Assembly (NCBI RefSeq): GCF_031624395.1
Contig: NZ_JAMQON010000001.1
Location: forward strand, 1,302,001 to 1,366,000
Origin: Halomicroarcula saliterrae
GTDB taxonomy: Archaea; Halobacteriota; Halobacteria; Halobacteriales; Haloarculaceae
Reading direction: 5' to 3'
Length of the DNA stretch: 64,000 nt
Shown here: positions 11,497 to 29,222 of the stretch, in pieces
Position numbering within the stretch: position 1 is the first letter of the stretch
Layout: each line of letters begins with the position of its first letter
Translations under genes and position numbers: made by a program
The notes under the pieces: model-generated
Databases searched by the model: none
Told to the model about the DNA's origin: nothing
What the model saw: only the letters and a program-made list of their open reading frames with translations

Positions 11497-12243
11497 TTAG
11501 GACTCGATGTCGACCGCGATGTCGTGGTAGACGACGTACACCTGGTCGATGTCGTTCCCCGGCTGGTACGTACACTCGATATCGTCACCTGACGACGCAC
11601 AGGTGAACCCGGCTCCCTCGAAGTACGCCCTCCAGAGCTCCGTCCGCGGCGTCCCGCGGAGCCGCACGGTGACGCTGTCGACATCGTCGGCCGTGGTGTT
11701 GTACGCCACCGAGGTGGCCTGTCGTCGCCCCCGGACGAGCACCGTCGACCCGCCGAGTGCCTGACGGTCCGGCCGGTTGAGACCGACGACGGAGACGAGG
11801 ACGCGCTCCTCGCTGACGACGAGCGGTGGGTCGTGGACGCGGATTCCGCCCCCGTCGGCCGTCCGGAACACCGCCCCCGCTTCGTACACCAGTTGGCGGT
11901 CCTCGGCGCCGCGGTAGATTATCGGCCGGAGCCGCCACTCGGGGCTCCGCCAGGTCCCACTACTGTCCGTGACGTTTACCAGCATCGTGACGTTCTCCCC
12001 GGTCTCCAGCTGGGCCTCGCCGAGACTTATCTCCGTAGCGCGGCTCGGTGCGTCCCGTCGATGGATGTCCGCGAGGTTATCCGCGAGCACGTCGAAGGCG
12101 CGCTCCGCGTTGTCCATCTGCTCGGCGGTGCGAGCGTCCTGGAGGGTGCTGAGCCCGCTCACCGAGATGATACCCACGGCGGACACGACGAGGCCGAACA
12201 CCAGCACGTAGCTGACGACCTCGCTCACGGCGCGCTCAGACAT
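11497..12243 (-). CDS. DUF7289-family prepilin-like protein (cassette A, fifth gene)
   Basis: A 248-residue protein starting MSERAVSEVVSYVLVFGLVVSAVG, a type III (prepilin-like) N-terminus with a single hydrophobic helix; the rest is predicted to be exported. It carries the DUF7289 signature LVYEAGAVFRTADGGG followed by PP, and a late WRAYFEGAGF plus a Cys pair. The start at 12243 was chosen because the upstream eight codons lie inside the preceding gene. It overlaps the DUF7266 gene by 8 bases, so translation is likely coupled. It is the last member of the five-gene cassette and the counterpart of 19605-20309. Confidence 0.75.
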   Translation of the reverse strand: MSERAVSEVVSYVLVFGLVVSAVGIISVSGLSTLQDARTAEQMDNAERAFDVLADNLADIHRRDAPSRATEISLGEAQLETGENVTMLVNVTDSSGTWRSPEWRLRPIIYRGAEDRQLVYEAGAVFRTADGGGIRVHDPPLVVSEERVLVSVVGLNRPDRQALGGSTVLVRGRRQATSVAYNTTADDVDSVTVRLRGTPRTELWRAYFEGAGFTCASSGDDIECTYQPGNDIDQVYVVYHDIAVDIES

Positions 12244-12685
12244 CCTGCACCTCCAGATGTTCGTCACCGGCGTCGTAGCTGATGCGGATGGTACCCCCGC
12301 TCACGGCGCTGTCGCTGAGGTCCGTCTCCGTCGTGACGCCGACCCGAACGCTCACCTCGGGACGGGACGTGTTGAGGACGACGGACGACCGGCTCTGGTC
12401 AAGCCCGACGGTGTAGGTCGACCCAGTGACCGAGTTCGAGAACGTCTGGTTCACGGAGACGACGACCGGGCTGTCGGTGTCACCGGCCCGCACCAGGCGG
12501 TCCGCCCGCTCGATGTCCGCCGCCAGCTGCTGGCCGACGACGGTGAGTTCGTCCCTGATGACCTGGTCGCGCTGGGTCTCGACGTAGCTCCCGCCGGCGA
12601 TGATGAGCCCGGTGATGAGCAGCGTGGCGATGGCCAGCGAGAGGACGTAGCCGAGCGTCGTCGAGACCGCACGCGTCTCAGACAT
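12236..12685 (-). CDS. DUF7266-family prepilin-like protein (cassette A, fourth gene)
   Basis: A 149-residue protein with MSETRAVSTTLGYVLSLAIATLLITGLIIAG at the N-terminus, one membrane helix, and then DVERAD-type polar sequence with the conserved VETQRDQVIRDEL stretch. It aligns well by eye with the cassette B protein at 20306-20755 (SYVETQRDQVIRDEL against SYIDTKRDNTVRQGL, with similar ends ISYDAGDEHLEVQ and VVYDATEPCLEVR). It was given the second in-frame ATG (12685), where homology begins. It is probably a minor pilin or pseudopilin; exact role unknown. Confidence 0.75.
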   Translation of the reverse strand: MSETRAVSTTLGYVLSLAIATLLITGLIIAGGSYVETQRDQVIRDELTVVGQQLAADIERADRLVRAGDTDSPVVVSVNQTFSNSVTGSTYTVGLDQSRSSVVLNTSRPEVSVRVGVTTETDLSDSAVSGGTIRISYDAGDEHLEVQDV

Positions 12686-13697
12686 CCGCTTCACCCGGGG
12701 CGACCCGAACGTCGGTCTCGTAGCGCATATCGGTCGTCAGATACGTATAGCGGACCGTCACGTCGTAGAGCGCGGGGCTCGACGCCGGGGCGGTGCGCAG
12801 GGGCGAGACCTCGGGACTGAGCGGCGACCGCCGGTACAGGACCATCGAGAAGTTCCCGGAGATGGCGTCCGCGTTGGCAAAGGAGATGTTGTACGACTCG
12901 GTCGTCCCGGGTGTTACCCCCGTGCCGGCGCCGAAGTGGAAGTTCCGTCCGGTCGGTGCGGTGCCGAGCGCGTCACACTCCTCGCCGTCGATAGTGCCGC
13001 CGGTGACGTCGATGTCGACGGACGCTCCCGGCCCGTCGTGAGTCACTGTACAGTCCTCGACGGCGGTGGTCGAACCGACGTCCCGGAGCGTCCGAACGTG
13101 GACGGTGTCGCCCCCCGATTCCCAAATGCGTGCGCGCCAGCTCTCCTGTACGCCCGTGGCCGGCGTCGACTGGGCCCGTATCTCGAAGGCCGAGCCGTTG
13201 TCCGTGGCCGTGATGGAGTTCGCCTCTATCTCGAACGCCCGCGTCCCGTTGGCGCCGTCGGCCCGGGAGACCAGGCCGGCCACCTGGTAGCTCTCGTCGC
13301 CGGCGTCGTCGGTGAACGTCGAGTTGTTCGACTGGTAGACGCGCACCCCCGGCGTCGACGACTGGTAGGCCACGTCGACCACGCGCCCCGACCGGGCCGA
13401 CTGGCGGCCCGTCTGCTCGGAGATGTTTCTGACGCCGGCCTGAACAGCGGTGGCGAGCGCCGCGGCGGTGGCGTTGTCGTTGCGGTTCGCCGCCGCGACG
13501 CTGTCACCGACGTTCGCCTCGACCATGGCCCGCATCGAGAGCGCCCCGTTGCTCCCCGTCGTCTCTCCCCGACTCGCCAGGTTCTCCGTGAATATCGCGG
13601 AGTTGACGATGAGCGCCATCACGACGAAGATGACCGCGAGCGCGAACGCGGCCACGAGGATAATCTGCCCGCGGTCGTCCCGCCTCAGATCCGCCAC
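12678..13697 (-). CDS. DUF7261-family prepilin-like protein (cassette A, third gene)
   Basis: A 339-residue protein with MADLRRDDRGQIILVAAFALAVIFVVMALIVN at its start. An RGQ-type motif before one hydrophobic helix recalls bacterial TadE/TadG pseudopilins. The remaining 300 residues are predicted exported, rich in Ser, Thr, Asn and Gly with many N-x-S/T sites, and end in a small beta-like segment (YDVTVRYTYLTTDMRYETDVRV). It overlaps the upstream DUF7288 gene by 13 bases and the downstream DUF7266 gene by 8. Its counterpart is 20752-21603. Confidence 0.75.
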   Translation of the reverse strand: MADLRRDDRGQIILVAAFALAVIFVVMALIVNSAIFTENLASRGETTGSNGALSMRAMVEANVGDSVAAANRNDNATAAALATAVQAGVRNISEQTGRQSARSGRVVDVAYQSSTPGVRVYQSNNSTFTDDAGDESYQVAGLVSRADGANGTRAFEIEANSITATDNGSAFEIRAQSTPATGVQESWRARIWESGGDTVHVRTLRDVGSTTAVEDCTVTHDGPGASVDIDVTGGTIDGEECDALGTAPTGRNFHFGAGTGVTPGTTESYNISFANADAISGNFSMVLYRRSPLSPEVSPLRTAPASSPALYDVTVRYTYLTTDMRYETDVRVAPGEADV

Positions 13698-14269
13698 GCG
13701 ACCACCTCCACCTGCACCGTGTTGTACAGGTTGCCGCCGACGTCCGGCATCGGATAGGTGACGTTCTGGGCCCCGAGAGCCGTCCCGCTCGGCGTCCCGT
13801 CAGCGTCGTACAGCGGGTCGTCGTCCCGGAGTGTGACCGTGTGGGCCGCCGTGACGGCGTTGTCCGTCGGCACGCCGCTGTAGACGTACTGTCGCGTTAT
13901 CGGCTCCCCGTCGTCGTTCTGGAACCGGAAGTAGACGTTGTAGGCGATGCCGTTGTCGTTGAACGCCCGCTCCAGCATGCGCCCGAAGCGGTTGTCCGGC
14001 GGCCCCGACGTGTAGAAGCGCTGGACGTCGACGCCGTGGTGGCGCGCGGAGCTGTTGTTCCAGTACAACACCGCCGGCTTCAGCGCCCCTGTCTGTGCGG
14101 CCACCGCCAGCACGCCCTGTCCGGTCGCCTGCTGCTGGTTCTCGATATGCTGGCTGGACGTGCTGGCCGATAGCGGCGTCACAGCGGTCATCTGTAGCGC
14201 GAAGATGAGACTCGACAGCATGAGCAGTCCAGCGACCGTCGCCTCCAGTGTGTGTGCTTGTGCTCGCAT
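13685..14269 (-). CDS. DUF7288-family prepilin-like protein (cassette A, second gene)
   Basis: A 194-residue protein, N-terminus MRAQAHTLEATVAGLLMLSSLIFALQM with the 'QA-x-TLE' prepilin-like motif. Its cassette B equivalent at 21597-22175 begins MVDRGQAYTLEGVLAAILVV. Both continue with a Leu/Gly-rich stretch (VLAVAAQTGALKPAVLYWN; VLTLAGESGALRDAVLCFS) and a YNVYFRF/YNLYFSY motif. Both end with a YNTVQVEVVAWRI/YNVVEVRLVVW strand. The gene follows the DUF7287 gene with one base between stop and start. It is probably a minor pilin-like component. Confidence 0.75.
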   Translation of the reverse strand: MRAQAHTLEATVAGLLMLSSLIFALQMTAVTPLSASTSSQHIENQQQATGQGVLAVAAQTGALKPAVLYWNNSSARHHGVDVQRFYTSGPPDNRFGRMLERAFNDNGIAYNVYFRFQNDDGEPITRQYVYSGVPTDNAVTAAHTVTLRDDDPLYDADGTPSGTALGAQNVTYPMPDVGGNLYNTVQVEVVAWRI

Positions 14270-14270
14270 G

Positions 14271-14855
14271 TTACCACATCTCCACGAACAGCGTCACGTC
14301 CGCCCCGTCGATCGAAACCACCCGGACCGACGTGACCGACGGCTGGGTCGTCGGAACTGGGTCGCCCCGGGCGAACGTCGTATCACAGTCCCCGCTCGAC
14401 GATTCTACGAGCCCCGTGTCCGTCCCGGTGCTGTCCCAGCACACGAACTCCTCTCCGCTCCCGGACGCCGTGAGGTTCCCCCGGAGACTGACGTTCACCT
14501 GCTGATAGCTCGACGCCACCCCGACCTGCGATTCGAGGCTTCCGCCCGGGAACGGACAGCCCGCCGAGTTGCCCTCGAAGAACGTCACCGTACAGTAGCT
14601 GTCCAGTGCGTAGGGCTCAGCCGGGGACGCCAACATCCCGACCGCGAGCTGGTCCGCGACTCTGTTTGACGAGACCGTTTCGTCCTGTGCACTCGCCGTG
14701 AACGGCGAGAGGATACCCGGAATGAACAGGAAGATGAACAGCAACACCGCGAGGAAGATGCTCACGCCGATAGCGAAGTCTATCGTCGTCTGTCCCCGGT
14801 CGGTTCTGCGAGCCGCTGGGGAGTCCCGCGGCTCATCGCTGTGCTGTGTGCCCAT
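14271..14855 (-). CDS. DUF7287-family prepilin-like protein (cassette A, first gene)
   Basis: A 194-residue protein. A polar leader (MGTQHSDEPRDSPAARRTD) precedes RGQTTIDFAIGVSIFLAVLLFIFLF, the strongest TadE-like 'RGQ..hDFAhG' motif of the set. The exported part holds two Cys pairs and ends with VVSIDGADVTLFVEMW, like the cassette B member (VVQLTNYDCGTVCWVVVRIW). The ATG at 14855 was chosen because the longer frame has an unrelated N-terminus. It heads the minus-strand cassette. The divergent tRNA-Ala gene starts 150 bases upstream. Confidence 0.75.
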   Translation of the reverse strand: MGTQHSDEPRDSPAARRTDRGQTTIDFAIGVSIFLAVLLFIFLFIPGILSPFTASAQDETVSSNRVADQLAVGMLASPAEPYALDSYCTVTFFEGNSAGCPFPGGSLESQVGVASSYQQVNVSLRGNLTASGSGEEFVCWDSTGTDTGLVESSSGDCDTTFARGDPVPTTQPSVTSVRVVSIDGADVTLFVEMW

Positions 14856-14967
14856 TTTTAGACCCGTTGTGACCCGCCGACTGTTTCGTAATCGACTGTC
14901 GTGGACGATATTAGCCATTGTGGCCGAACCACGCTATCGACTGTCGTCCCCGAGTCGCTTCGATGGG

Positions 14968-14976
14968 TTTAATAAA
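14968..14976 (+). promoter_or_regulatory. TATA-like box of the tRNA-Ala gene
   Basis: TTTAATAAA is about 30 nt before the first base of the mature tRNA at 15006. This is the right spacing for an archaeal TATA box with a short 5' leader. No other AT-rich element is nearby. Confidence 0.6.
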
Positions 14977-15005
14977 CGCCGTCGGATACGGTTGGTTGCG
15001 AACGC

Positions 15006-15077
15006 GGGCTCGTAGATCAGGGGTAGATCACTCCCTTGGCATGGGAGAGGCCCCGGGTTCAAATCCCGGCGAGTCCA
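15006..15077 (+). tRNA. tRNA-Ala, anticodon GGC
   Basis: The 72 bases fold into a standard cloverleaf. The acceptor stem is GGGCTCG/CGAGTCC with discriminator A, the D stem GATC/GATC, the anticodon stem CTCCC/GGGAG with loop TTGGCAT, and the T stem CCGGG/CCCGG with loop TTCAAAT. The anticodon GGC reads GCC and GCU alanine codons. The third acceptor pair is G3-U70, the universal alanine identity element. No CCA is encoded and no intron is present. It lies inside the pilus-like locus between cassette A and the 1268-residue protein gene. Confidence 0.97.
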
Positions 15078-15550
15078 TTTCTTCGCTCACGTCCGTTCGC
15101 TCAGTCGCGGACTCGCCAACCCTCGCGAACCCGAAGGGTTCGCTCAGTCCCGGCGATGTCATTTCTTTCCGTCGCTCCGTCAGTCCACGATTCATGTCAC
15201 TCGCGAGCGACTGAACCGCGTCTGTTCGAGGCGGGACAGAGCCGTATCTGTCACGCCCCGCAAAGCGGAGGGCAGCGAACGTCCGGGCGGAGCTCCCCGT
15301 CGAGTTCAGATACCGCGATTTTCGCGCGTTCAGTCCGAGACGCGTCACCCCGCGAAGCGGAGACCAGTTTGTCCGGCGAATCGCGTGGCTCACGAGCGGT
15401 CCGTCACCGGCGACACGGTCGTCCCTACGTCGTGTCCCTCTATTAAACTTGAAGAGAAACTGCCGACAGAACCCCTCAGGACCACAATATCGGTATTATA
15501 GACCGATCTCACCGATAGTTTTTTGTGCGCGTGAGATGATTTAGGGTAAG
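15078..15550. other. 473-base gap after the tRNA with a partial copy of the tRNA 3' end
   Basis: No gene is supported here; the longest open frames are low-complexity by-products. The sequence at 15148-15167 repeats 17 of 20 bases of the tRNA 3' end and the bases just after it (15064-15083, TCCCGGCGA...ATTTCTT). Two similar words, CCCCGCAAAGCGGAG (about 15256) and CCCCGCGAAGCGGAG (about 15350), also occur. At the right end TATTATA (15494-15500) and an AT-rich stretch (15515-15525) probably serve as promoter of the gene at 15551. Confidence 0.5.
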
Positions 15551-18500
15551 ATGGGTCAGGGCATTTGCTTATCGTCGGACGGACGCGGGGTCTCTAACGT
15601 CGTTGCGGTGATACTTCTCGTCGGGCTCACACTGGTAGGGGTCGTCGCTATTCTCGCGACAGGAGTGGTGACCATCGACGAGACGAACCAGGATGCGAAC
15701 ATGGAGATCGCCGAGGAGTCGATGCTCCAGATAGACAGCGCACTAGAGCAGGACAGTGGTGGCAACACGTCGGTATCGGTGCCGGACCAGTTGGAGGGGA
15801 AGGTGGCCGTCTCGAACGACCAGTCGTACCGGCTAACGCTGAACGAGAACTCCCAGTGTACGACCGGCTCACGCGACCTGAGCAGCGTCGAGTACGAGGA
15901 GAACGGGCAACGGGTGGCCTACGAGGGGGGCGGGGTGTGGCGGCTGACTGAATCGGGTGCGACGATGACGTCGCCGCCCGGGGTCGAGTACGACGAGGGG
16001 TCTCTCTCCGTCTCGTTCATCGAACTCGACGGTCGGATCACCGACTCCAGCGAGTTCACCACGAAGGCCGACACCTCGGAGCAGCGGCGACACCAGTTCC
16101 GGCTCACTCGTGGGCTGTACACCGACGGCACGTATAGCTCGCCACCGGCCGACGGCAGCCTCAACTACATCTGCCGACCCACACAGGTAGAGAACGCCAC
16201 GCTGACCATCGAGAACAGCCAGTACGCACGTGCGTGGAAGGACTGGGCCGAGAGCAACTACGACAGCGATCTGGTGACTGTCAAGACGAGCGGAGACGTC
16301 GAGCCCGGAGACGACGTGACGATTCGGTATTCGCTGGGAGACGTCTCGGAGGCGGAGTACGAGGTCACCGATATCCGAGCGAGCCGGGCCTCGGGTAGCG
16401 GTCCCGTTACGGTGAACGCGACGGTCGAGAACGTCGGTGGACTGCGGGAACGGAAGGATATCGAGTTAAGGTACGGCACCTACAGCGAAACCAAGACGAA
16501 AGGAATCGGCGGAGGCGATACCAAGTACGTGACCTTCGAGATTCCAAAGAGCGAGGTGGTGACGGGGACCAACACGATGACCGTCGAAACGCCCTCTGAT
16601 ACAGCGAACGAGGACATCACGTTCAACAGTATCAGCGCCGTCCCCAAGGTCACGCTCCAGGCCGTCTCGGTTCCCAGCGAAGTCGCCGTCGACGCGGCGC
16701 CGAGTGGGGCCAACCTGGAGGTGATAAACACCGGCGGAATGACCGCCTTCGATACGGTCACCATGGATATCAGCGACGGGCCCGAAGTGACCTACAACGT
16801 GACGGTGGCACCGGGTTCGTCGAAGGACCAGCCCGTGGGAGCTGACCTGCCGACGGACAACACCGGCTCACACGACCTCGTGTTCAGTAGCCGTCTGGCG
16901 TCGAGCGACGTGAGCAAGACGCTCACAATCGGCGACGTCGGCTACTTCGCGCTGGAGGACGTGTCAGCGCCCTCCGACGTCCGCCGGGGCGAGACAGTCC
17001 GACTGGAGGCGACAGTCAACAACACCGGTATCAAGGAACTTCGAGGGGAGATCGACGCGAACATCACCAACCTCGATACGGGTACCGAAGTCGAGGCAAT
17101 CGACCCGACGGAAACGCCGGTAACACTGAGAGGAACTGCGACGGGGCCGGACACGAAGGACATCTCGCTTTCCTACACGGCCAACACCCGAGGGAACTAC
17201 AGTTACCGCCTCGAAACGCCGAACGAAACCCGAATCGGTCAGTTCTACGTCGGGATACCCCCGGGGCCGAACCTCATCGTCAGGAGTGTGAACATCACCC
17301 AGGACCCGGTCGATATGGGTAGCGAGACGACATTCGAGGTGGAAGTGGCAAACACCGGTACGGAACCGGCGGACCAGACGGTCAGGCTGAACACCTCCGA
17401 CGGGAAAGTGGTCAAAGAGACGGACCTGAACGTCTCCTCGGGTGACTCGGAGGAGTTTGACTGGACAGTTACCACAGACGAATCGGTGTTTATCGACGGA
17501 TTCAACGAGCTCAACGTCACTACCGAGAACGTCACGCTACCGACGTCTCTCAACGTCAAGGACCCGAGTACGTACTCGAGAAACGACGACGGCAGCGTCA
17601 CGTTCACCGAGGCGGTAAACGTGACAGTGTCGATGGAGGGCGCGGAACTCGAGGCGAACACCTCCGCCGAAGGCGAGGAAGTCTTCGAGTACGGCGTGAC
17701 TGTCGAGATGTCGCTGGTGATAGAGAACGAATCGGGCCGGTTCGAGAAGGTGCTGTGGGAGGACGTTCCGGAGACCGGAGCGGACGTCGGCCATCCGATC
17801 GCCGAGCGGGCGATGCAACAGGACGACGAGCCGAACTCGTATACCGAAACGCTCCGGTTCGACAACGGGACTACCTTCGCTCTGTACGCGACGAGTTACT
17901 ACTGCCGTGACTGGGACGTGACGGACGTGGTGCATCCGGACCGTGGTATCGCCGGGAATCTTCGGGATACGACCGGGATAGCCTGCGATGACGCGGGCGG
18001 TGAACGGCTCCGAATCGGACAGGGAACGAATACGGAAAACGTCGTTATCAAGAAAGACGGGGAGAGCGTTCCCGCCTACGACTCCGGCTCGCCGTTACAG
18101 CTCACGCTCGACGACATGCTCGGAGACGAGAAGATAGACGACGACGGGAACCTCAATCTCGCGAACGGTGAAGCGGTGTTCCTCTACGAGCTCTCCCAGC
18201 AAGACGCCGACCCGGCCAACGCGACAGACAACACGGGCGGCGACCCGGACTACAACGACGCTATCGCGCGGTTCCAGGTCGAAGAGATAAACAAGACGGT
18301 CAAGACAGAGCCCAGCTTCGAGATTACGAACGTGGACGTGCCGGCACGGGTCGGTGCGGGCAACGACGCCGGGATGGAAGTGACCGTCCGCAACAACGGT
18401 GGACAGGCCGGAAAGACGCCCGTCGAAGTGACGATGGACGGCAAGACGTATCAGAAGACAACCGACGAACTCTCCACCAACGAGACCGACGATCTGACCT

Positions 18501-19357
18501 TCGTGCTGGATACGTCCTCGGGCTCGGTCGGGAAGAACTACCGGGTCACAGCCAGTGCACTCGAGACGCCGAGGGCCGAGTGGGTCGGGTTCGTGACCGT
18601 CGGCGAACCCAGCGAGCCGTTCTTCCAGGTGAGCGGACTCACCGGGCCGGCCGTGGCCGACGACGACGACTCACCGGAGGCGGCAGTCAACATTACCAAC
18701 GTCGGAACCAGCGACGGCAGCCAGGAGGTCGTTCTGGAGTACAAAAACAACGACACGGCGAGTGCGACGTGGCAAGAGGAGAGCACCACGACACTCTCGA
18801 TAGACCCCGGTGAGACGGTAAACACCACCCTCGCCCTGCCCGATAGCAAAGGGAACTACACATACCGCGTCAGGACGGAGAACGTCACGAGTTCGGACCT
18901 CGAGCTGTTCGTCGGCTCCTCGGACGTCTACGTGGCCGAAACGAACTCCATAAACATCGGTGCCCAGGAGTACGACGCAGGGACCCTCGTAGAGCGCAAA
19001 GGCAGTATCACGTCGCTGAACGTCGAACTGAAGAACAACGGGACCGTCGGAGACGAGCGGGACGTCCGGCTGGAGATCTCGAACGACAGCTCGACACCGG
19101 TCGACCGGACGATACGCAAACAGGTCGGTGGCGGCGACCTGCTCGGACAGGGCAGCGTCCCCGCCTACGCCGACTTCAACGCGGAGCTCGACCCCGGCTT
19201 CTACACCTACACCATCACGGTGTACGACGACACGCCGTCGGACGGGCCCGGCCACGAGGTCAGTGGGCAGCTCTACCTGCGCGCCGTATCCAGCGACATA
19301 GCCGACGCCGACAACTCCCCGATAACGATAGACTCGGGGACAGTGACTGTCGGCTAA
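15551..19357 (+). CDS. Giant prepilin-like surface protein: DUF7289-like module plus CARDB/Ig-like repeats
   Basis: A 1268-residue protein. Residues 1-40 are a prepilin-like N-terminus (GRGVSNVVAVILLVGLTLVGVVAI). Residues 50-240 carry the locus-wide DUF7289 signature (VAYEGGGVWR, a PP motif, YARAWKDWAESN). From about residue 270 to the end come roughly seven Ig-like modules of the CARDB kind, each with the 'V-x-V-x-NTG/NVG' strand: VNATVENVGG, LEVINTGG, LEATVNNTG, FEVEVANTG, MEVTVRNNGG, AVNITNVG, LNVELKNNG. A different domain at about 675-910 has three Cys. Many N-x-S/T sites suggest heavy N-glycosylation. It probably projects from the cell surface or a pilus as an adhesin or stalk. It has its own promoter and a T-run terminator. 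Confidence 0.75.
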   Translation: MGQGICLSSDGRGVSNVVAVILLVGLTLVGVVAILATGVVTIDETNQDANMEIAEESMLQIDSALEQDSGGNTSVSVPDQLEGKVAVSNDQSYRLTLNENSQCTTGSRDLSSVEYEENGQRVAYEGGGVWRLTESGATMTSPPGVEYDEGSLSVSFIELDGRITDSSEFTTKADTSEQRRHQFRLTRGLYTDGTYSSPPADGSLNYICRPTQVENATLTIENSQYARAWKDWAESNYDSDLVTVKTSGDVEPGDDVTIRYSLGDVSEAEYEVTDIRASRASGSGPVTVNATVENVGGLRERKDIELRYGTYSETKTKGIGGGDTKYVTFEIPKSEVVTGTNTMTVETPSDTANEDITFNSISAVPKVTLQAVSVPSEVAVDAAPSGANLEVINTGGMTAFDTVTMDISDGPEVTYNVTVAPGSSKDQPVGADLPTDNTGSHDLVFSSRLASSDVSKTLTIGDVGYFALEDVSAPSDVRRGETVRLEATVNNTGIKELRGEIDANITNLDTGTEVEAIDPTETPVTLRGTATGPDTKDISLSYTANTRGNYSYRLETPNETRIGQFYVGIPPGPNLIVRSVNITQDPVDMGSETTFEVEVANTGTEPADQTVRLNTSDGKVVKETDLNVSSGDSEEFDWTVTTDESVFIDGFNELNVTTENVTLPTSLNVKDPSTYSRNDDGSVTFTEAVNVTVSMEGAELEANTSAEGEEVFEYGVTVEMSLVIENESGRFEKVLWEDVPETGADVGHPIAERAMQQDDEPNSYTETLRFDNGTTFALYATSYYCRDWDVTDVVHPDRGIAGNLRDTTGIACDDAGGERLRIGQGTNTENVVIKKDGESVPAYDSGSPLQLTLDDMLGDEKIDDDGNLNLANGEAVFLYELSQQDADPANATDNTGGDPDYNDAIARFQVEEINKTVKTEPSFEITNVDVPARVGAGNDAGMEVTVRNNGGQAGKTPVEVTMDGKTYQKTTDELSTNETDDLTFVLDTSSGSVGKNYRVTASALETPRAEWVGFVTVGEPSEPFFQVSGLTGPAVADDDDSPEAAVNITNVGTSDGSQEVVLEYKNNDTASATWQEESTTTLSIDPGETVNTTLALPDSKGNYTYRVRTENVTSSDLELFVGSSDVYVAETNSINIGAQEYDAGTLVERKGSITSLNVELKNNGTVGDERDVRLEISNDSSTPVDRTIRKQVGGGDLLGQGSVPAYADFNAELDPGFYTYTITVYDDTPSDGPGHEVSGQLYLRAVSSDIADADNSPITIDSGTVTVG

Positions 19358-19368
19358 CTGGAACAGGC

Positions 19369-19398
19369 GTTCTTTTTGTCCGCTGCTCGGAGCAGCGG
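19369..19398 (+). terminator. Transcription terminator after the giant protein gene
   Basis: A T-run (TTCTTTTTG, about 19369-19378) comes 12 bases after the stop codon. It is followed by a 9-bp perfect inverted repeat CCGCTGCTC/GAGCAGCGG (19380-19388 and 19390-19398). Archaeal termination mainly needs the oligo-T tract; the hairpin may protect the message end or serve the converging minus-strand cassette. The rest of the gap to 19604 shows nothing recognisable. Confidence 0.55.
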
Positions 19399-19604
19399 GT
19401 CCGGTGACCGGCCAGCGGTACTGTGGTCGTCTCACAGCGGGTGTACCAGCCCCCGCCCGCACTCGACGAGTGACACCTGGAGCGAAAACCGTACGCTGCC
19501 GGGGGAGACACAGTCGTCGTCAACCCATCGGAGCTGCCGGTGTCGCTCTGTGAAAAGCCCAGTCGCCTTCGACAGCACACTGGCGACCGACTGCGCCGCG
19601 GGCC

Positions 19605-20309
19605 TCAGTTTATCACGTTGATGCGGACCGTCGTCTGATGAACGACGACTCGCTCGATGGAGTCACACGTGTAGCTCGGACCGGAGCCCGTCCAGCCGCC
19701 GCTCGTGAGCGTCTCCCCCCACGAGTCCGGGCGCGCGGTCTCGTCGGTGTAGACGGTGACGCTGTCGGTCTCTCTGGTCGTGAGGCTCTGGTTGACGAGT
19801 TCGCTCTCCAGCGTGACGCGGCTGTCGGACGAGATACTGAACTCGCCGACGAGCCGCGTCACCGGGAGATGCGCCGTCTGGTCGCCACACCGAAGCGGTG
19901 GCCGGCGGACGACGACCGACCCGCCGTCCTGTGCACGGAACAGCGCGCCGCTCTCGTAGACCAGCTCGGTGTCGGTGTCGGTCGTCCGGACCAGCGCGCC
20001 CGTCCTGTTCTCTATCCGCGTCGGGTTCCCGCTGACGCTCCACTTGAGCAGCGAGTCGGAACGGGTGAGGCTGTGCCCCTGGAGTTTGATCGTCGTGGAC
20101 CGGCGCGGGGCGCTGGCAGTTCGGTGGTCGGCGAGCGTCGAGGCGTAGTTGCGCATCGTCTCCTCGGCGACGTTCGATTCGGTGCCCGCCTGAACGTCGC
20201 CCAGCGTCCCGATGCCGGTGACCGTGACGACACCGATCATGAAGATGATGGTGGCGAACACGAGCGTGAACGAGACCACGTCGGACACGCCACGCCGTCG
20301 GCTGGTCAC
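19605..20309 (-). CDS. DUF7289-family prepilin-like protein (cassette B, fifth gene)
   Basis: A 234-residue protein beginning MTSRRRGVSDVVSFTLVFATIIFMIGVVTVTG, one hydrophobic helix after a short basic/polar start. It has the DUF7289 motif LVYESGALFRAQDGG then PP, a Cys pair (RCGDQ and YTCDS) and a late W-containing segment. It overlaps the DUF7266 gene by 4 bases. It is the cassette B copy of 11497-12243 and is convergent with the giant protein gene. Confidence 0.75.
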   Translation of the reverse strand: MTSRRRGVSDVVSFTLVFATIIFMIGVVTVTGIGTLGDVQAGTESNVAEETMRNYASTLADHRTASAPRRSTTIKLQGHSLTRSDSLLKWSVSGNPTRIENRTGALVRTTDTDTELVYESGALFRAQDGGSVVVRRPPLRCGDQTAHLPVTRLVGEFSISSDSRVTLESELVNQSLTTRETDSVTVYTDETARPDSWGETLTSGGWTGSGPSYTCDSIERVVVHQTTVRINVIN

Positions 20310-20755
20310 GCGGCTCGCACCTCCAGACAGGGCTCCGTCGCGTCGTAGACGACCTGGATCGGTCCGCCCGTGACACGGCTCTCACAGACAGCGGTCGTGT
20401 TCTTGAATCGAACCTGCGTCCGGCGGTCGCTCGCCGTCGAGTTGATGTAGATTGTCGTCCGGTCGGCGCTCGGGTCGAGGTGGATACGATACCCCTCGCC
20501 ACCGACCCTGTCGGGGTACGCCGAGGAGAACGAGATCTCTTGTGAGACACCGTCGGTGTCGAACTGGTCGAGTCGGACGAGGTCACTGGCCACGCCCGAC
20601 CCGACGTCTATCAGTCCCTGTCGGACCGTGTTGTCCCGTTTGGTGTCGATGTACGACGACCCGCCCAGAAGCAGGCCCGTAATCAGTATCGTCGAAATGC
20701 CGATGGTCAGCGCCTGCGTGACGGCCGGTGAGACCGCGCGTGTGTCCCCGATCAT
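20306..20755 (-). CDS. DUF7266-family prepilin-like protein (cassette B, fourth gene)
   Basis: A 149-residue protein, the same length as its cassette A copy. N-terminus MIGDTRAVSPAVTQALTIGISTILITGLLLGGSSYIDTKRD: a 'TRAVS' start, a hydrophobic helix, then the SY-hDTKRD turn. The C-terminus VVYDATEPCLEVRAA matches the cassette A end. It is coupled by 4-base overlaps to both neighbours. Role unknown; probably a minor pilin-like subunit. Confidence 0.75.
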   Translation of the reverse strand: MIGDTRAVSPAVTQALTIGISTILITGLLLGGSSYIDTKRDNTVRQGLIDVGSGVASDLVRLDQFDTDGVSQEISFSSAYPDRVGGEGYRIHLDPSADRTTIYINSTASDRRTQVRFKNTTAVCESRVTGGPIQVVYDATEPCLEVRAA

Positions 20756-21603
20756 GACGTTTCGTTCACCAGGATAGTTCGTTCGTAGCTCGTGTCCGGC
20801 CCGACGTACTCGATCTCGACCGCCGGGTTGAGTACGCCGGGGGTGACAGCGGGGAACGTCCCGGAGCCGACGAACCTGAACTCGCCATCGTTACTACCGG
20901 ATTTATCGAAGGTGACCGTGTACGGACCCGAGAGCGACGCGTCGTAGGTTGTGAACGTCCCGCCGCCCGAACACGTCCCTTCGGTGATGTTCACTGTTAC
21001 CGGCGTGGTGCCGGTACAGCCCGGCACCTCGCTCCAGCCGGTGCCGTCGTCGACGGACACCTTGGTGGTTCCCGTACTCGGTTCCTCGTACACCCGGACG
21101 GCCCAGAACCCTGAGTCACCCGATATTCTGACCTCGTAGGCGGCCGTAGTCCCGGGGTTTTGGACGTTAGTGACAGTGAAGTTGAACTCGGTTATCCGCT
21201 CCGACCCGGTGACGAGGTCGTCGTTCCAGTTCCCGTTCGACGGGCCGGGTCTGGACAGGGTACTCCGGTCGACCTCTCGCAACGAGTCGCCGGGGCTCAC
21301 CGTGGCGTTGACGTACACCCCGTCTCGCTGGGCGCTTGTCCGGGTGTAATCCCTCGAAAAGTTCCAGAGCGAGCGATTCAGCTCGTTTATGTTGCTCGTG
21401 TCCATCTCGTTCGCGAGCGCGCGGACGCCCCGCTCGACGCTGGCTTCCCGGTCGGCCGTCCTGTCGATGTCGCTCACCGTCTCCGAACTGGCCGCGCTCT
21501 CGGACACGACGAGGCTGTTCGACAGCGGGATGGCCGTCAGGAACACGATGGCGATGGCGAGCCCGCCGAGGAGCAACACCTGCCCGCGGTCGTCGGCTAC
21601 CAT
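20752..21603 (-). CDS. DUF7261-family prepilin-like protein (cassette B, third gene)
   Basis: A 283-residue protein starting MVADDRGQVLLLGGLAIAIVFLTAIPLSNSLV, equivalent to the DDRGQIILVAAFALAV start in cassette A. The exported region includes RGVRALANEM and many N-x-S/T sites. The end (PAVEIEYVGPDTSYERTILV) resembles the beta-like end of the cassette A protein. It overlaps DUF7288 by 7 bases and DUF7266 by 4. Confidence 0.75.
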   Translation of the reverse strand: MVADDRGQVLLLGGLAIAIVFLTAIPLSNSLVVSESAASSETVSDIDRTADREASVERGVRALANEMDTSNINELNRSLWNFSRDYTRTSAQRDGVYVNATVSPGDSLREVDRSTLSRPGPSNGNWNDDLVTGSERITEFNFTVTNVQNPGTTAAYEVRISGDSGFWAVRVYEEPSTGTTKVSVDDGTGWSEVPGCTGTTPVTVNITEGTCSGGGTFTTYDASLSGPYTVTFDKSGSNDGEFRFVGSGTFPAVTPGVLNPAVEIEYVGPDTSYERTILVNETS

Positions 21604-22175
21604 ACGACCAGTCGCACCTCCACGACGTTGTACAGCGACGACTTCTCGTCGGTGTCCTTCTGGATGTAGAACTCCGAGTCGTCCTGGATGTCGATCGGAA
21701 TCGAGTTACACCGGTTCCCGTTGCGGATGTCCATCCCGTCGGTCAGCGTCACCGTCGTCGAGGCGGCAGCCGCACTCGTCGGTGGTCGCCTGTCCGACTC
21801 CTGTGAGGTCTCGGAGACGAGTCGCGTCTCCCGGCTCTCGCTCTCGTTCCAGTAGCTAAAATAGAGGTTGTACTGGTCGGCCTGACTGTCGAACGTGGTG
21901 TTGAGCATGGACTCGAAGGTCGAACGGGGTTCGGGACGGTCGCCGTCGATGGCGCGAGCCGACGAGAAACAGAGCACCGCATCGCGCAACGCTCCCGACT
22001 CCCCGGCCAGCGTCAACACGTCACTGGCCCGGTGCTTGAGTTCCTGTGTCTCGCCCCGCGTCGTGTCTTCCCAGGCGCGGGTATCGATGGCCTGCAAGCC
22101 GTACACCGTCGCTGTGACGACCAGAATGGCCGCGAGGACTCCCTCCAGCGTGTACGCCTGACCGCGGTCTACCAT
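21597..22175 (-). CDS. DUF7288-family prepilin-like protein (cassette B, second gene)
   Basis: A 192-residue protein beginning MVDRGQAYTLEGVLAAILVVTATVYGLQAID. The start at 22175 was chosen by this conserved N-terminus and by the 7-base overlap with the preceding DUF7287 gene; a longer frame upstream lies within that gene. Shared blocks with cassette A are the Leu/Gly-rich VLTLAGESGALRDAVL, the FESMLNTTF/FGRMLERAF region and the YNLYFSYW motif. Confidence 0.75.
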   Translation of the reverse strand: MVDRGQAYTLEGVLAAILVVTATVYGLQAIDTRAWEDTTRGETQELKHRASDVLTLAGESGALRDAVLCFSSARAIDGDRPEPRSTFESMLNTTFDSQADQYNLYFSYWNESESRETRLVSETSQESDRRPPTSAAAASTTVTLTDGMDIRNGNRCNSIPIDIQDDSEFYIQKDTDEKSSLYNVVEVRLVVW

Positions 22176-22693
22176 ATCCGAACCACCACCCAGCAGACCG
22201 TCCCGCAGTCGTAGTTCGTCAGCTGGACGACTCGCGAGGACGTGACTGGCTCGGAGCGACGGTACTCGCCCCACGCCAGTCGCGACCCGTCCATCGCAGG
22301 CGTCCGGTCGCCGCTGTCGAGCGTCGTCCCGTTGACGATGCTCACGTTGACTATGGGGTCCGTCCGGCGGTCCGACTGCACGTCTGCACCGGCGGCCTCG
22401 ATGAGACTGGTCAGTTCCTTCGTGGCACCGGCCGACTGTGCTCTCGAAAGATTGACGTCGATACTGCCGGGGCCGGAGTCGTATCTGAGGACGTTGCGGT
22501 CCCCCTCCGTGCTGTAGTTCTCGACGACGTACGAGGCGATACGGTCGGCCTGGGGCTGTTCGACCCCGGGCGAGGTCCCCTCGTACACCGCCAGCGCACC
22601 GCCCTGCGTGAAAAAGAAGGCACCGATAACCGTCACTAGGAGGACGCTAACGCCGATTGCGAAATCCTGAGTGGTTTGTCCCCGAATCCCCAT
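22169..22693 (-). CDS. DUF7287-family prepilin-like protein (cassette B, first gene)
   Basis: A 174-residue protein with MGIRGQTTQDFAIGVSVLLVTVIGAFFFT, matching the RGQTTIDFAIGVSIFLA start of cassette A. It contains a Cys pair near the end (YDCGTVCWVVVRIW). It starts 35 bases after the stop codon of the platform protein gene, so the cassette may be read from the same transcript as the secretion ATPase and platform genes. Confidence 0.75.
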   Translation of the reverse strand: MGIRGQTTQDFAIGVSVLLVTVIGAFFFTQGGALAVYEGTSPGVEQPQADRIASYVVENYSTEGDRNVLRYDSGPGSIDVNLSRAQSAGATKELTSLIEAAGADVQSDRRTDPIVNVSIVNGTTLDSGDRTPAMDGSRLAWGEYRRSEPVTSSRVVQLTNYDCGTVCWVVVRIW

Positions 22694-22728: not shown

Positions 22729-24771
22729 TCATCCGACCGCCATCCACACAACTAAAGCGATCGTCGAGAGGATGACGGCGAACTTCACGCCGGCCATCAG
22801 TTTCACTTCGCGGATATACCCGGCGATAAACGACGACAGCAACGCCTGCAGGGTGACTGCGTGGAAAAACAGCATCGACAGCGCGTCGGTGTCGATGTTG
22901 CTGCCGAACTGGCCGCCCCCGGCGGGGCTACCCCCGCCGGCGCCGCTTGCCTGCTGGGTCAGCCCCGACATCACGTCGAGGAACTGGGTCTTCAACAGCG
23001 CCATGACGCCCAGCAGCGTCAGATAGGTCATGATGATGATGACCGTCTGCATCCGGGTTCGGGACTTCCGGGAGCGGTCGATGTCGTCCTGGTTCTCGGC
23101 GGCCTGTGCCGCCGTCGACAGCACGTCCTGAATCTGGCTGGAGGCCTCCTGTGCCTCCGCGATGAGCTTCACCGTCCGGGCCATCCGCGGGACGTGGTAC
23201 TTGTTGTTGAACTCCCGCAGGGCATCCTTGAGGCTGGTCCCGTAGTTCACCTTCGCGTGCATCGTCTCGAACTCGTCCGAGAGCTTACCCGCCGACGTCT
23301 CCGAGACGACCTTGATGGACTCGAGCAGCGTCATGCCGGTGTCGTTCGCCGAGGCGAGCTTCCGGAGGTTCTCCGAGAGGTTCCCGATGATGGCCTTTCG
23401 GGAGCGCTGGTTCCACTCGTAGAAGATGGCGAGCGGGATGAAGTTGATGTACATCGGTACGTACACCCAGAAGAACGTCCCCGAGACGGGGTTGGACTCC
23501 ATGCCGGAGATGGTGAGCGGAGCCCATCCCAAGACGATGCTCAGGACCACGGCGAGGACGGAGAGGGGCGCCGACAGCCCCAGCACCAGCATCGGGTGGT
23601 CACGGAAGAACAGATGGGGCTTTTTTAGTATCTGGACCAGTTCGTAGGTGCCTTCACGGCCCTTGATACGGTCGAAGACGCTGTAGGACCCGGTGTAGGA
23701 CTCGATGAGGCCGAGGTTGAAAACGGCGATACCCTCGTCGACGACGATCTCCTCCTCGTCGGAGTTGGGCCTGAGGTAGCCGTCCCCGACCGCGTCCTGA
23801 GTCACCGTCGAGACCAGCACCAGGAAGGCGATGCCGGTCAGCGGGATGAGTCCGTAGACGGTCCCGTAGATGAGCATCCCCTGCGCGTTGCCCATCATCG
23901 ACATGATGACGAGGATGATGATGAGCAAGAGCGGGAACAGCGAGAGCGTCATGTACATCTCGCCGAACAGCTCCAGCGTCTCCAGCATCTTCTCCTGTTC
24001 CTGCTTGGTCGTCCGCATGTGCTTTTCCTTCTGGTCCTCGAGGAACGAGGTCATGTCCCCACCGGAGTTGATGATAGACAGCATGTCGGTGAGGAACTGC
24101 GAGAGCTCGTCAGAGGGGGTCTGTATCGCCTGGTTCCGAACGGCGGTCCGGTAGTCGGTGTCGAAATACTCCGTCTCGAGGACGATGGACTTGAACTCCT
24201 GTGCGACCTCGCCGTAGGTGTCGTCGGCCTCGCCCATCGCCTGCAGGATTTCGAGCTGGTTCAGGCCGCCCACGGAGAGCGCGTACATGAAGGAGATGGC
24301 GTCGGAGAGGAGGATGTTGATTTCGCGTTCACGCGCGCTGGCGCGGAAATAGGGTATCGAAACGAGCGAGCCGAAGCCGACGCCGAAGCCGATCGCCCCG
24401 AAGACGACGCCGGTGACGAGGATAATAAAGGGGAGTTTCAGCGTGTCGATGATCGAGAGCAGCATCTCGTTCTGTATCGAGATCCCGATAAAGGTCGGCG
24501 CCTCCGACCCGGAGAAGAAGATGGTCACGGCGAGAAAGCCCAGCAGGCTGCCGACGAGCCAGAGGGCGACGCCGGCGATGATACCGACGGCGAGCGCCCG
24601 CGCGAGGAACATCTCGACGTTGTCGGCCATCCGGGCCTGTGCGAGTTTGTCCTCGACGCTGTCGACGAACTCGCCTTCCTCGTCGAACAGGCGCTGGTAG
24701 GCCGGGTAGAAGGCGTCACCGAGGGTGCCGCCGCTGGCGAGGCGCTTTTGCTCTCTCGTGTCGAGACTCAT
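22729..24771 (-). CDS. pilC: Type II/IV secretion system F-like membrane platform protein (TadC/PilC/ArlJ type)
   Basis: A 680-residue inner-membrane platform protein, about double the usual single T2SSF unit. A cytoplasmic N-terminus is followed by a hydrophobic region (about 55-130), a first helical T2SSF domain (about 150-290, with ARERE-INILLSDAISFMYALSVGG), and more membrane spans (about 290-345). A second T2SSF domain (about 460-600, with GNLSENLRKLASANDTGMTLLESIKVV) and C-terminal membrane spans complete it. This is the architecture of archaeal pilus platform proteins. The start overlaps the end of the ATPase gene by 4 bases (ATGA, 24768-24771). A Gly/Ala loop (GAGGGSPAGGG) lies near residue 630. 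The gene symbol is by analogy. Confidence 0.9.
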   Translation of the reverse strand: MSLDTREQKRLASGGTLGDAFYPAYQRLFDEEGEFVDSVEDKLAQARMADNVEMFLARALAVGIIAGVALWLVGSLLGFLAVTIFFSGSEAPTFIGISIQNEMLLSIIDTLKLPFIILVTGVVFGAIGFGVGFGSLVSIPYFRASAREREINILLSDAISFMYALSVGGLNQLEILQAMGEADDTYGEVAQEFKSIVLETEYFDTDYRTAVRNQAIQTPSDELSQFLTDMLSIINSGGDMTSFLEDQKEKHMRTTKQEQEKMLETLELFGEMYMTLSLFPLLLIIILVIMSMMGNAQGMLIYGTVYGLIPLTGIAFLVLVSTVTQDAVGDGYLRPNSDEEEIVVDEGIAVFNLGLIESYTGSYSVFDRIKGREGTYELVQILKKPHLFFRDHPMLVLGLSAPLSVLAVVLSIVLGWAPLTISGMESNPVSGTFFWVYVPMYINFIPLAIFYEWNQRSRKAIIGNLSENLRKLASANDTGMTLLESIKVVSETSAGKLSDEFETMHAKVNYGTSLKDALREFNNKYHVPRMARTVKLIAEAQEASSQIQDVLSTAAQAAENQDDIDRSRKSRTRMQTVIIIMTYLTLLGVMALLKTQFLDVMSGLTQQASGAGGGSPAGGGQFGSNIDTDALSMLFFHAVTLQALLSSFIAGYIREVKLMAGVKFAVILSTIALVVWMAVG

Positions 24772-27281
24772 CCGCTATCTGCCTCCTTGCCGGCCTTCGG
24801 GACGAACTGACCGAACTCGGTGGGTTCGTCGTCGTCGGTGTCGCCGTCGTTCTCTTCGAGGGCGTTGCCGTCCATCAGCGCGGAGACGATGTCGGGGGTG
24901 TCGCCGCTCTTGAACTTCGTGAACAGCGGTCCGGCGTTGTCGAGCACCTGTTTGGTCTCCTCGACCATCTCCGGCGGCGCGTCCGGTCGCGGCACCATCT
25001 CCTCTTTGTCCGGGTCGATGTCGATCTTGACCGACTCCATCTCCCGGAGGTCCTCCAGCGAGCGTTCCAGCTGGTCGTTCGCGATGAGCGTGAGGATGGT
25101 CTCGGGGTCATTGATAAAGGCCTGAATGGTCGCGGCGACCTCGGTGTAGGTGTTGATGCCCTGCTCGATGAGATAGGCCAGCACGACCTTCCGCTTGAAC
25201 AGTTCCTCGTCGAGTTTCTCCTGTGTCCACCCGCGGTCGAACTTGATCTCTTCGAGGGTGTTCGAGTTACCCATCTGGATGTACTCGTCGGTCTCGGCGC
25301 GCCACTCGTAGACGTCCCGGACGTTTATCTCGTCGTTCTCGGCGGAGTACTCGTTTATCTCCGTGAGCGATTTGTTCCGGCGGACCTTGTTCCCGTCGAC
25401 CCGGGTCTGGGTCTGGATGGAGACGAGATCGAGCGCGGTAAAGAGCGTCTTCGAGACGTTGATGGGCTCGGTGGTGAAGCGCTTGATGACCTCGCCCACC
25501 GAGTCGGCGTGGAAGGTGGTGTAGGTGGTGTGGCCGGTCGACATGACCTGGAACAGCGTCCGACCTTCCTCACCACGAATCTCACCCATGACGATGTAGT
25601 CGGGGCGTTGACGGAGCGCGGCCTCCAGCAGGTCGAACTCGTCGACGTCGCCCTTGTCGTCCTCCCCGAAGGAGGGACGGGTGATGCTCGCGACCCAGTT
25701 GCGCTGGGGGAGCTCGACCTCACGGGTGTCCTCGATGGAGACGATTTTGGAGTTCGACGGGATGAACAGGGAGACGGCGTTCAGGCTCGTCGTCTTTCCG
25801 GAGGCCGTACCGCCGGCGAAGATGAGGCTCTTGTTGTTCTCGATACAGAGCCACAGGAAGGCCATCTCGTCCAGCGAGAAGGTGTTCCAGTTGATGAGGT
25901 CGATGGGCGTGAAGGGGACGTCCTTGAACTGACGGATGGTGTAGTTGGTCCCGTGGTCCGAGACCTCCCGGCCGAGCGTCAGCTGCGCACGCGAGCCGTC
26001 CGGGAGCGTGGCGTCGATCTGTGGCTGTCGTTTGGAGATGCCCTTCCCGGAACGCTGGGCGAGTTTGACGACGAAGTCGTCGAGCTCGGTCTCGCCGTGT
26101 TCGACGTTCGAGATGATCTGCTCGTAGTCGGTGTGGTAGACGAACACCCGGGAGTTGTAGCCGTCACAGGAGATGTCCTCCACGTTGATGTCGTGTTTCA
26201 CCGGGTCGATGAGCCCGTAGCCGACGAAGTCCCGTTTCAGCATGTACAGCAGCTTCTCGACCTGATACTCGCTGAGCGTCGACGGGTCGTCCGCGATAAT
26301 CGCCGGTTCGGGTCGGACCGAGAGCCCGTTGAGCTGGCCCACCGCTTCGGTGGGCGTCACGTCGTCGGGGTCGAACAGGTCCTTGAGCTGGTCGAAGAAG
26401 CCGGTCCCGCCGCTCGTCGAATTGATCGGGTCGTCGTAGAGGTCGTACCGCGAGAGGAGCTGTTCGGCCTCGCGCTGGATGACCTGTGCCCGGTCGGCGT
26501 TGCTCCCCTTGACGATGACGTCGTCCTCGGAGTATTTGATGGCCGTCTTGAGCTTGCCGGAGAGAAAGCCCTTGAGGTCGCTCTCTATCGGGTTGAGATG
26601 GGGTTCGACGACGTAGTACTTCTTCTCGTTTTCCTTCCGGGACTGGAAGACGATGGCACAGGCGTAAGGCTTGTTGACCCAGTAACGCTCCAGTTCTTTG
26701 AAGTGTGTCTTCTTCGAGAACGGGACCGCCTTCTCCAGGTCGTAGCGGTTGACCACCGTGGTGTGGCCTTCCCGCGTCGAGAAGAACTCGTCTTCGTCGA
26801 GCTCCGGGTTCACGTCGACGGTGCGCTCCTCGACGAGTTCGTCGAGCTCCGAGGCGAAGTCCTCGGCCTGTGAGAGGTGGTTCTCCGCGTCCTCGGGCTC
26901 GAAGCCGAGGTGCGACCTTGGGTCGAACGGGACGACGTTGCCCTCGCCGTCCAGGGGCTGGTCGCCGTTCTCGTAGTAGAACTCCTGTTTGAAGTGCTCC
27001 CACGTGTAGGTCCCCTTGACCACGGGCGTCGTCGTCGGGTCGATATACTCGGCGAACGGCCGATTGACTGTCTTCGCGGCGCTGGCTCCCGCTTCGAGCC
27101 GGTCAGCTATCGCCTCGGGGTCGAACCCGAGATACTCGCTCCGATCGAACGGACCGCCGTCGTGTAGTTCACGCCGAAGGTCCTCCCACGTGTATGCCCC
27201 CACAGCCGCGTTTCGCTCAGGCGACGTGACCCCAGCGTCGGCCTGATCCGACCCGGATTCGTTTGTGTCCTCTATTGCCAT
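24768..27281 (-). CDS. pilB: Type II/IV secretion ATPase (TadA/VirB11/ArlI type) with duplicated N-terminal motif
   Basis: An 837-residue cytoplasmic hexameric ATPase that would power assembly of pilins. Walker A (GGTASGKTT) is at about 490-498, and Walker B with the adjacent Glu (IVMGEIRGEEG) at about 560-570. Between them is an Asp/Arg box region (SIEDTREVELPQRN). A His box (STGHTTYTTFHADS) follows. The first 130 residues contain two copies of a motif YTWE-(D/H)-hhx-E...PFD-x-S-x-LGF-(D/E)-PE, at about 30-55 and 80-120. The C-terminal 60 residues are acidic. It is the first gene of an operon with the platform protein and probably cassette B. An AT-rich TATA-like stretch (GATTTTTTAC on this strand, about 27304-27313) lies about 25 nt upstream. 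Confidence 0.93.
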   Translation of the reverse strand: MAIEDTNESGSDQADAGVTSPERNAAVGAYTWEDLRRELHDGGPFDRSEYLGFDPEAIADRLEAGASAAKTVNRPFAEYIDPTTTPVVKGTYTWEHFKQEFYYENGDQPLDGEGNVVPFDPRSHLGFEPEDAENHLSQAEDFASELDELVEERTVDVNPELDEDEFFSTREGHTTVVNRYDLEKAVPFSKKTHFKELERYWVNKPYACAIVFQSRKENEKKYYVVEPHLNPIESDLKGFLSGKLKTAIKYSEDDVIVKGSNADRAQVIQREAEQLLSRYDLYDDPINSTSGGTGFFDQLKDLFDPDDVTPTEAVGQLNGLSVRPEPAIIADDPSTLSEYQVEKLLYMLKRDFVGYGLIDPVKHDINVEDISCDGYNSRVFVYHTDYEQIISNVEHGETELDDFVVKLAQRSGKGISKRQPQIDATLPDGSRAQLTLGREVSDHGTNYTIRQFKDVPFTPIDLINWNTFSLDEMAFLWLCIENNKSLIFAGGTASGKTTSLNAVSLFIPSNSKIVSIEDTREVELPQRNWVASITRPSFGEDDKGDVDEFDLLEAALRQRPDYIVMGEIRGEEGRTLFQVMSTGHTTYTTFHADSVGEVIKRFTTEPINVSKTLFTALDLVSIQTQTRVDGNKVRRNKSLTEINEYSAENDEINVRDVYEWRAETDEYIQMGNSNTLEEIKFDRGWTQEKLDEELFKRKVVLAYLIEQGINTYTEVAATIQAFINDPETILTLIANDQLERSLEDLREMESVKIDIDPDKEEMVPRPDAPPEMVEETKQVLDNAGPLFTKFKSGDTPDIVSALMDGNALEENDGDTDDDEPTEFGQFVPKAGKEADSG

Positions 27282-29107: not shown

Positions 29108-29222
29108 ACAGAGTGGGCGGTACTCACTCTCAAAAGCCTTGCTCAACGATGGAAGACCGTGACAGTGTGTGGAGCCGTGGACGACGCGAGATTTAATTGG
29201 GAGCAGTCCGACGGATGGAGTA

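Follow-up and report, generated by a model that had tools for sequence, protein, structure and literature searches.

Two six-gene pilin modules beside one PilB4-type motor in Halomicroarcula saliterrae suggest alternative pilus tips

The window analysed here is a stretch of 64,000 nucleotides of Halomicroarcula saliterrae (contig NZ_JAMQON010000001.1, positions 1,302,001 to 1,366,000), which holds two cassettes of small prepilin genes, A and B, each with a long convergent prepilin gene, near one set of PilB4-type motor genes. We regard it as rather probable that these are two alternative, interchangeable six-gene minor-pilin and tip-adhesin modules served by the one motor. The locus offers a well-delimited case for testing: two pilin sets, each co-segregating and each with a large end-piece of its own kind, accompany one motor, and a relative, Haloarcula rara, has only one of the sets. 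It bears on an open question of the field, namely what the numerous haloarchaeal pilins of no known function do and which motor they use. The analysis names likely tip proteins and sets an archaeal beta-solenoid pilin beside the bacterial ComZ.

Results

Both cassettes are found on the minus strand in the order DUF7287-7288-7261-7266-7289, as given by Pfam and the open reading frame (ORF) list of the window. A sequence-only reading had proposed exactly this pair, and all ten ORFs are present at the positions, in the order and on the strand that it gave. Cassette A comprises the DUF7287 prepilin (14271..14918, Pfam 144 bits, with its start at 14918 or 14855), DUF7288 (13685..14269, 221 bits), DUF7261 (12678..13697, 44 bits), DUF7266 (12236..12694, 89 bits) and DUF7289 (11497..12267, 219 bits, likely start near 12243). 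Cassette B comprises DUF7287 (22169..22693, 97 bits), DUF7288 (21597..22274, 143 bits, likely start 22175), a DUF7261-like prepilin (20752..21603), DUF7266 (20306..20755, 57 bits) and DUF7289 (19605..20309, 131 bits). The DUF7261-like protein scores 22.2 bits in Pfam, below the cut-off of 27 bits; its assignment comes from a profile-profile comparison of the A-type and B-type families by hhalign (probability 100%, E 1e-40). Inside each cassette the genes overlap or are separated by 1 nt, allowing for the likely internal starts, which agrees with the tight junctions noted earlier. The identical order in about 113 cassettes of many genera excludes a chance origin of the shared arrangement. The two copies are strongly diverged, as had also been judged by eye, with identities between A and B of 37% for DUF7287, 31% for DUF7288, 28% for DUF7261, 37% for DUF7266 and 30% for DUF7289. 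In the window genome DUF7288 is found twice and DUF7289 four times, every one of them in this locus.

A class III cleavage motif (RGQ., RAQ., RAVS or RGVS) followed by a hydrophobic stretch is present in 12 of the 12 prepilins of the window, the long ones included, so that the N-terminal likeness first seen between the cassettes extends to every member. Across relatives, where the count used a hydrophobic-stretch rule, 88-100% of the members of each class carry the motif, against 209 of 4504 other ORFs. By the presence of the [KR][GA] motif, the cassette proteins and their long partners are predicted class III prepilins, to be cleaved by PibD. In the literature searched, no paper names DUF7287, DUF7288, DUF7261, DUF7266 or DUF7289.

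Each cassette faces a long protein encoded convergently on the plus strand, and in both of these the first ~240 residues are a DUF7289 domain. P0013 (9702..11495, 597 aa), the partner of A, carries a DUF7305 beta-solenoid according to Pfam and its structural model, and 1 bp separates its stop from that of cassette A. P0014 (15551..19357, 1268 aa), the partner of B, carries CARDB and Ig-like repeats according to Pfam and a model of its N-terminal part, and ends 247 bp from cassette B. The DUF7289 proteins of the locus are duplicated and vary in length from 234 to 1268 aa. A DUF7289-headed partner is found with 37 of 38 unlinked cassettes outside the B clade (A-type and a few others), with 26 of 34 motor-linked canonical cassettes and with 21 of 41 B-clade cassettes. 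In the partner tree the B-linked proteins form one clade (99*), and A and B part once. Because the long partners co-segregate with the A/B split, the module comprises six genes. In Pfam, the partners of A-type and canonical cassettes have DUF7305 or DUF7308, and those of B-type cassettes have CARDB or VWA (10 of 19 members each). The P0014 orthologue is kept beside the tRNA-Ala gene and A in Haloarcula with distant A and B (five loci). To be noted, in most sampled Haloarcula the long partner of cassette A (~600 aa) is tandemly duplicated (L042-L060, loci with split cassettes).

The AlphaFold model of P0013 (predicted local distance difference test score, pLDDT, 86.6) shows an N-terminal helix of 54 residues, a beta head, a solenoid at about 250-570 and a final strand at 584-596; the modelled solenoid thus sits before the last strand of the pilin head. 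VIA-align matches the solenoid structurally to ice-binding proteins, at Z 17, and to ComZ, at Z 15.8 with 252 residues aligned. Foldseek returned zero matches in the PDB at E < 0.001 with P0013, and the fold claim rests on the VIA-align Z values. The model of the P0014 N-terminal part (pLDDT 74.5) predicts, with moderate confidence, that a long N-terminal helix leads into a beta head and Ig-like repeats. By analogy with known tip pilins, P0013 and P0014 are likely tip proteins, probably sticky end-pieces of the filament.

For the comparison with relatives the genus of the window was treated as Haloarcula, and congeners are Haloarcula genomes. Of 292 genomes sampled from the class, 273 have DUF7288, usually as a single copy; two copies are largely restricted to the family of the window. 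The usual layout is asnC - aminotransferase - pilB - pilC - cassette - convergent partner. A and B lie side by side also in Halomicrobium, Halorientalis and Halapricum-like genomes. Some 140-200 kb separate the two cassettes in most sampled Haloarcula, where they have opposite orientations; the examined genomes among these have an rRNA operon next to B. An inversion in these species is the simplest account. The tandem arrangement as an assembly artefact was rejected, since H. amylovorans and further genera share it, and so was a viral origin of the cassettes, with zero relatives of the DUF7288 of cassette A in viral contigs.

A concatenated tree of 113 cassettes places A of the window among the canonical motor-linked cassettes, within a clade that consists mostly of unlinked cassettes from its family; B falls into a separate clade, whose position outside every canonical cassette has starred support. 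Mixture-model trees (45 rows and 24 rows) repeat this separation. The five single-family trees each separate A from B by one change, and the consistent placement that had been set as a check for the five pairs is therefore observed. A topology with A and B as sisters is rejected (log-likelihood 247 lower, p ~1e-4, LG+G4) and is also 89 log-likelihood units lower under the mixture model with 24 rows. The earlier suggestion of an old duplication stands as far as the age of the split and its consistency are concerned; the module proved to have six genes and not five, and a recent tandem duplication that would make A and B Haloarcula in-paralogues is ruled out by the family, concatenated and constrained trees. 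The tree of pilB and pilC follows taxonomy, with the two-module genera in one clade (34 rows, 100*), unlike the pilins of these genera, which split into two distant clades. On this sequence evidence the motor is vertically inherited, the cassettes linked to the motor in most Halobacteria are like cassette A, and B is the deviant, faster-evolving one. All trees are rooted at the midpoint and have long branches, so that to call A canonical is a statement of similarity and clustering and no proof of the order of events.

The position of a tRNA-Ala(GGC) gene gives a second view of the locus. In the window it lies between the modules (15006..15077, plus strand, found by ARAGORN), antisense to both cassettes, and its position is conserved in relatives. 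Across the loci in which it was found, an antisense tRNA-Ala(GGC) follows most motor-linked cassettes, B and outgroups included, at a distance of about 5-8 kb downstream, but lies about 1 kb upstream of A. From this placement across relatives, B occupies the ancestral position and A lies beyond the tRNA. H. rara has a single DUF7288 gene in its genome and zero P0014 orthologues. There the interval corresponding to 22733-15083 of the window (7.65 kb, B with its partner) is replaced by about 177 bp, and pilC - tRNA-Ala - A remains. Its PilB is 88% identical to that of the window while those of B-bearing congeners are 82-84% identical, and loss of B in H. rara is hence the simplest reading. The observation that only B adjoins the motor is true in the window, but it would mislead if A were taken for an extra copy, since A is canonical by sequence and is the neighbour of the motor in H. 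rara. The slot between motor and tRNA varies in content: it may hold B, a different cassette (L065, G265), in other Haloarcula unrelated genes (L158, L164, L177), or almost nothing (L155). In H. pellucida (L158:704-7723), where B is absent, the slot holds a gene with a metallo-beta-lactamase fold, several unknown genes and a weak match to a replication protein.

How B came to differ so much may be explained in two ways. One possible though tentative account is a horizontal exchange into the motor-tRNA-Ala slot, by which the resident cassette was displaced and its lineage is now represented by A beyond the tRNA. The vertical motor tree beside the distant B pilins and the variable slot contents agree with this. 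In H. amylovorans the 20-bp 3' end of tRNA-Ala(GGC) is repeated exactly 4.6 kb from the gene (L156:3564 and L156:8137-8208), which from sequence suggests that an element integrated at the tRNA between the two modules and also speaks for this account. No second copy of the tRNA 3' end as a direct repeat flanking a module is present in the window, and the H. amylovorans copy flanks a different insert. A donor lineage for B was not found in the sample, where B is confined to the family except for a weakly attached group (f3); besides, a move or a duplication has to be assumed for A as well, because the outgroups have no cassette past the tRNA.

The other account, which we hold slightly less likely, needs nothing foreign: B would be a tandem duplicate, made in the family, either of A or of the ancestral cassette that both share, with faster change beside the motor. 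It fits the ancestral motor-tRNA-Ala position of B, like that of canonical outgroup cassettes, and the observation that the nonsynonymous rate (dN) of B exceeds that of A in most close pairs. The rejection of A and B as sisters under both models and the starred grouping of B outside all canonical cassettes speak against it.

In the closest Haloarcula pairs the motor has a ratio of nonsynonymous to synonymous rates (dN/dS) of 0.01-0.05; the values are 0.12-0.16 for cassette A and 0.15-0.29 for cassette B. With such low values both cassettes are maintained under purifying selection, and the pseudo-operon that had been named as the condition against a functional A is not what is found. In one congener (G106, L050) the five genes of cassette A are together only ~53% identical to those of congeners, while its motor is 98-99% and its B 77-92% identical. 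Such a pattern is as expected for replacement of the whole cassette, and these identities suggest exchange of the module in one block.

The motor is formed by a PilC/TadC-type platform protein (T2SSF, 22729..24771) and a PilB4-type assembly ATPase (T2SSE, 24768..27281), both assigned by Pfam on the minus strand; in the window these genes adjoin cassette B only. The ATPase has N- and C-terminal extensions, with T2SSE at residues 415-628 of 837 and PilB3_C at 663-736, and over ~490 aa it is 79% identical to a motor-linked Haloferax ATPase (these Haloferax comparisons used species other than H. volcanii). An extended VirB11-like ATPase, an adjacent TadC-type platform and prepilins of its own in the locus identify the motor, by sequence, as PilB4-type. 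For its two modules, every sampled Haloarcula genome has a single ATPase of this type. In Haloferax the PilB4 protein was detected in one growth medium only (PMC7305310) and virus infection lowers the expression of pilB4-C4 (PMC12542753), hence the motor type is expressed and regulated.

Discussion

The earlier idea that the cassettes may assemble alternative tips or pili with one motor is kept as the best reading, with motor sharing and tip location as its conditional parts. The proposal of two tip modules rests on the match of P0013 to the ComZ fold and on the precedent of a VWA modular pilin for relatives of P0014. A prepilin peptidase would cut the signal peptides of the module prepilins. 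The small pilins could then form a priming and tip complex, as bacterial minor pilins do, which the large pilin would cap as an adhesin or ligand binder. The single motor would extend the filament beneath whichever complex is made. The tip of module A would consist of a DUF7289 head and a beta-solenoid, and that of module B of a DUF7289 head with a long CARDB/Ig-like region, VWA also occurring in relatives. Module B is placed for possible co-transcription with pilBC, and A lies behind its own intergenic gap beside tRNA-Ala, so that the two may be expressed differentially. In cells with both modules, the shared motor, the tip location and the adhesive role would likewise follow from this scheme.

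Small pilins and a large tip protein encoded together are known from the minor pilin and tip complexes GspH-I-J-K and FimU-PilV-W-X with PilY1. The likeness of our modules to these lies in the gene set, and a common function may be suggested by analogy only. ComZ of Thermus thermophilus has been described as a tip pilin whose beta-solenoid lies between the last two strands and most resembles the ice-binding protein FfIBP (PMC6561018). In the P0013 model, likewise, an ice-binding-like beta-solenoid interrupts the pilin head ahead of its last strand; unlike ComZ, P0013 is archaeal, and at ~12% identity the likeness is one of fold only, which implies neither common descent of the solenoid nor DNA binding. 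PilB of Streptococcus sanguinis is a modular pilin with VWA, an adhesin with a probable tip location (PMC8179133). It shares with P0014 the design of a pilin module bearing a large adhesive module, and relatives of P0014 bear VWA, whereas P0014 itself bears CARDB, and its tip position is only putative.

The haloarchaeal PilB4-type locus of clade 2 (HVO_1160 of Haloferax volcanii), in which Makarova et al. (2016) proposed a dedicated major pilin inside the pilin set (PMC4858521), resembles ours in its extended ATPase, its TadC-type platform and its own pilins. That locus includes a duplicated minor pilin family of variable length (arCOG02911), to which the DUF7289 proteins of the window, duplicated and of varying length as well, may correspond. 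It differs in that our window has two long-split sets at one motor, each with a large convergent pilin of its own class. That one motor can serve different pilin sets is known for the pilB-C paralogues of Haloferax (PMC6491452, PMC4858521), where PilB1-C1 and PilB3-C3 can cross-complement; the Haloferax sets belong to separate motors, while both sets of the window lie beside one. A wider claim, that the family runs an exchangeable-tip system with a shared filament, one PilB4 motor and a solenoid or CARDB/VWA tip chosen by expression, the motor-tRNA slot being a site of whole-module swaps between lineages, we offer only as a speculative extension.

Several points weigh against two tip modules on one motor. 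Module A could use another motor, as the window genome holds four further T2SSE genes, the closest of those compared being 47% identical, and the co-occurrence of cassette and motor is partly a linkage effect. The branches are very long, and the placement of B could reflect acceleration, as B is faster than A in most close pairs. The major pilin might be a cassette subunit or one of the PilA-type pilins that are encoded elsewhere in the genome. The five small pilins and the large one could also form distinct filaments instead of tips.

This last idea leads to two complete, separate pili, each cassette with its own major pilin and filament, where B would be assembled via PilB4 and A via PilB4 or a PilB3-like motor. 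The major pilin proposed by Makarova et al., the other T2SSE genes and the ability of Haloferax PilB3-C3 to complement a pilB1-C1 deletion and so serve another pilin set (PMC6491452) all favour such an arrangement. Yet loci with A only (H. rara, Salinibaculum) retain a PilB4-type motor alongside, and one genus (g12) lacks DUF7288 and motor together, and we judge separate pili unlikely. In two genomes (G199, G002) the only detected cassettes are unlinked, with the motor present elsewhere in the genome, which, like the joint absence in g12, speaks for the one-motor reading. That A is a silent relic without function, as might be read from the lack of adjoining motor genes in the window, is hardly credible given its low dN/dS, intact ORFs, conserved partner and retention where B was lost.

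Flanking features

Upstream of pilB on the same minus strand, Pfam identifies an aminotransferase (27471..28616), found at the same pilB flank in many relatives, and an Lrp/AsnC regulator (28613..29305), also a flank in relatives. The divergent gap between tRNA-Ala and cassette A (14919..15005) contains a conserved TTTATTAAA box in the alignment across relatives, and such a box could serve the tRNA, cassette A, or both. Away from the cassettes, the window genome has six consecutive PilA-type (Pilin_N) genes on one strand (G000:C1:492270-495983), which are candidate major pilins. In Haloferax (L217, L222, L223, L225, L226, L230, L233), the cassette is followed downstream by two tRNA-Ala(GGC) genes with about 0.7-3 kb between them.

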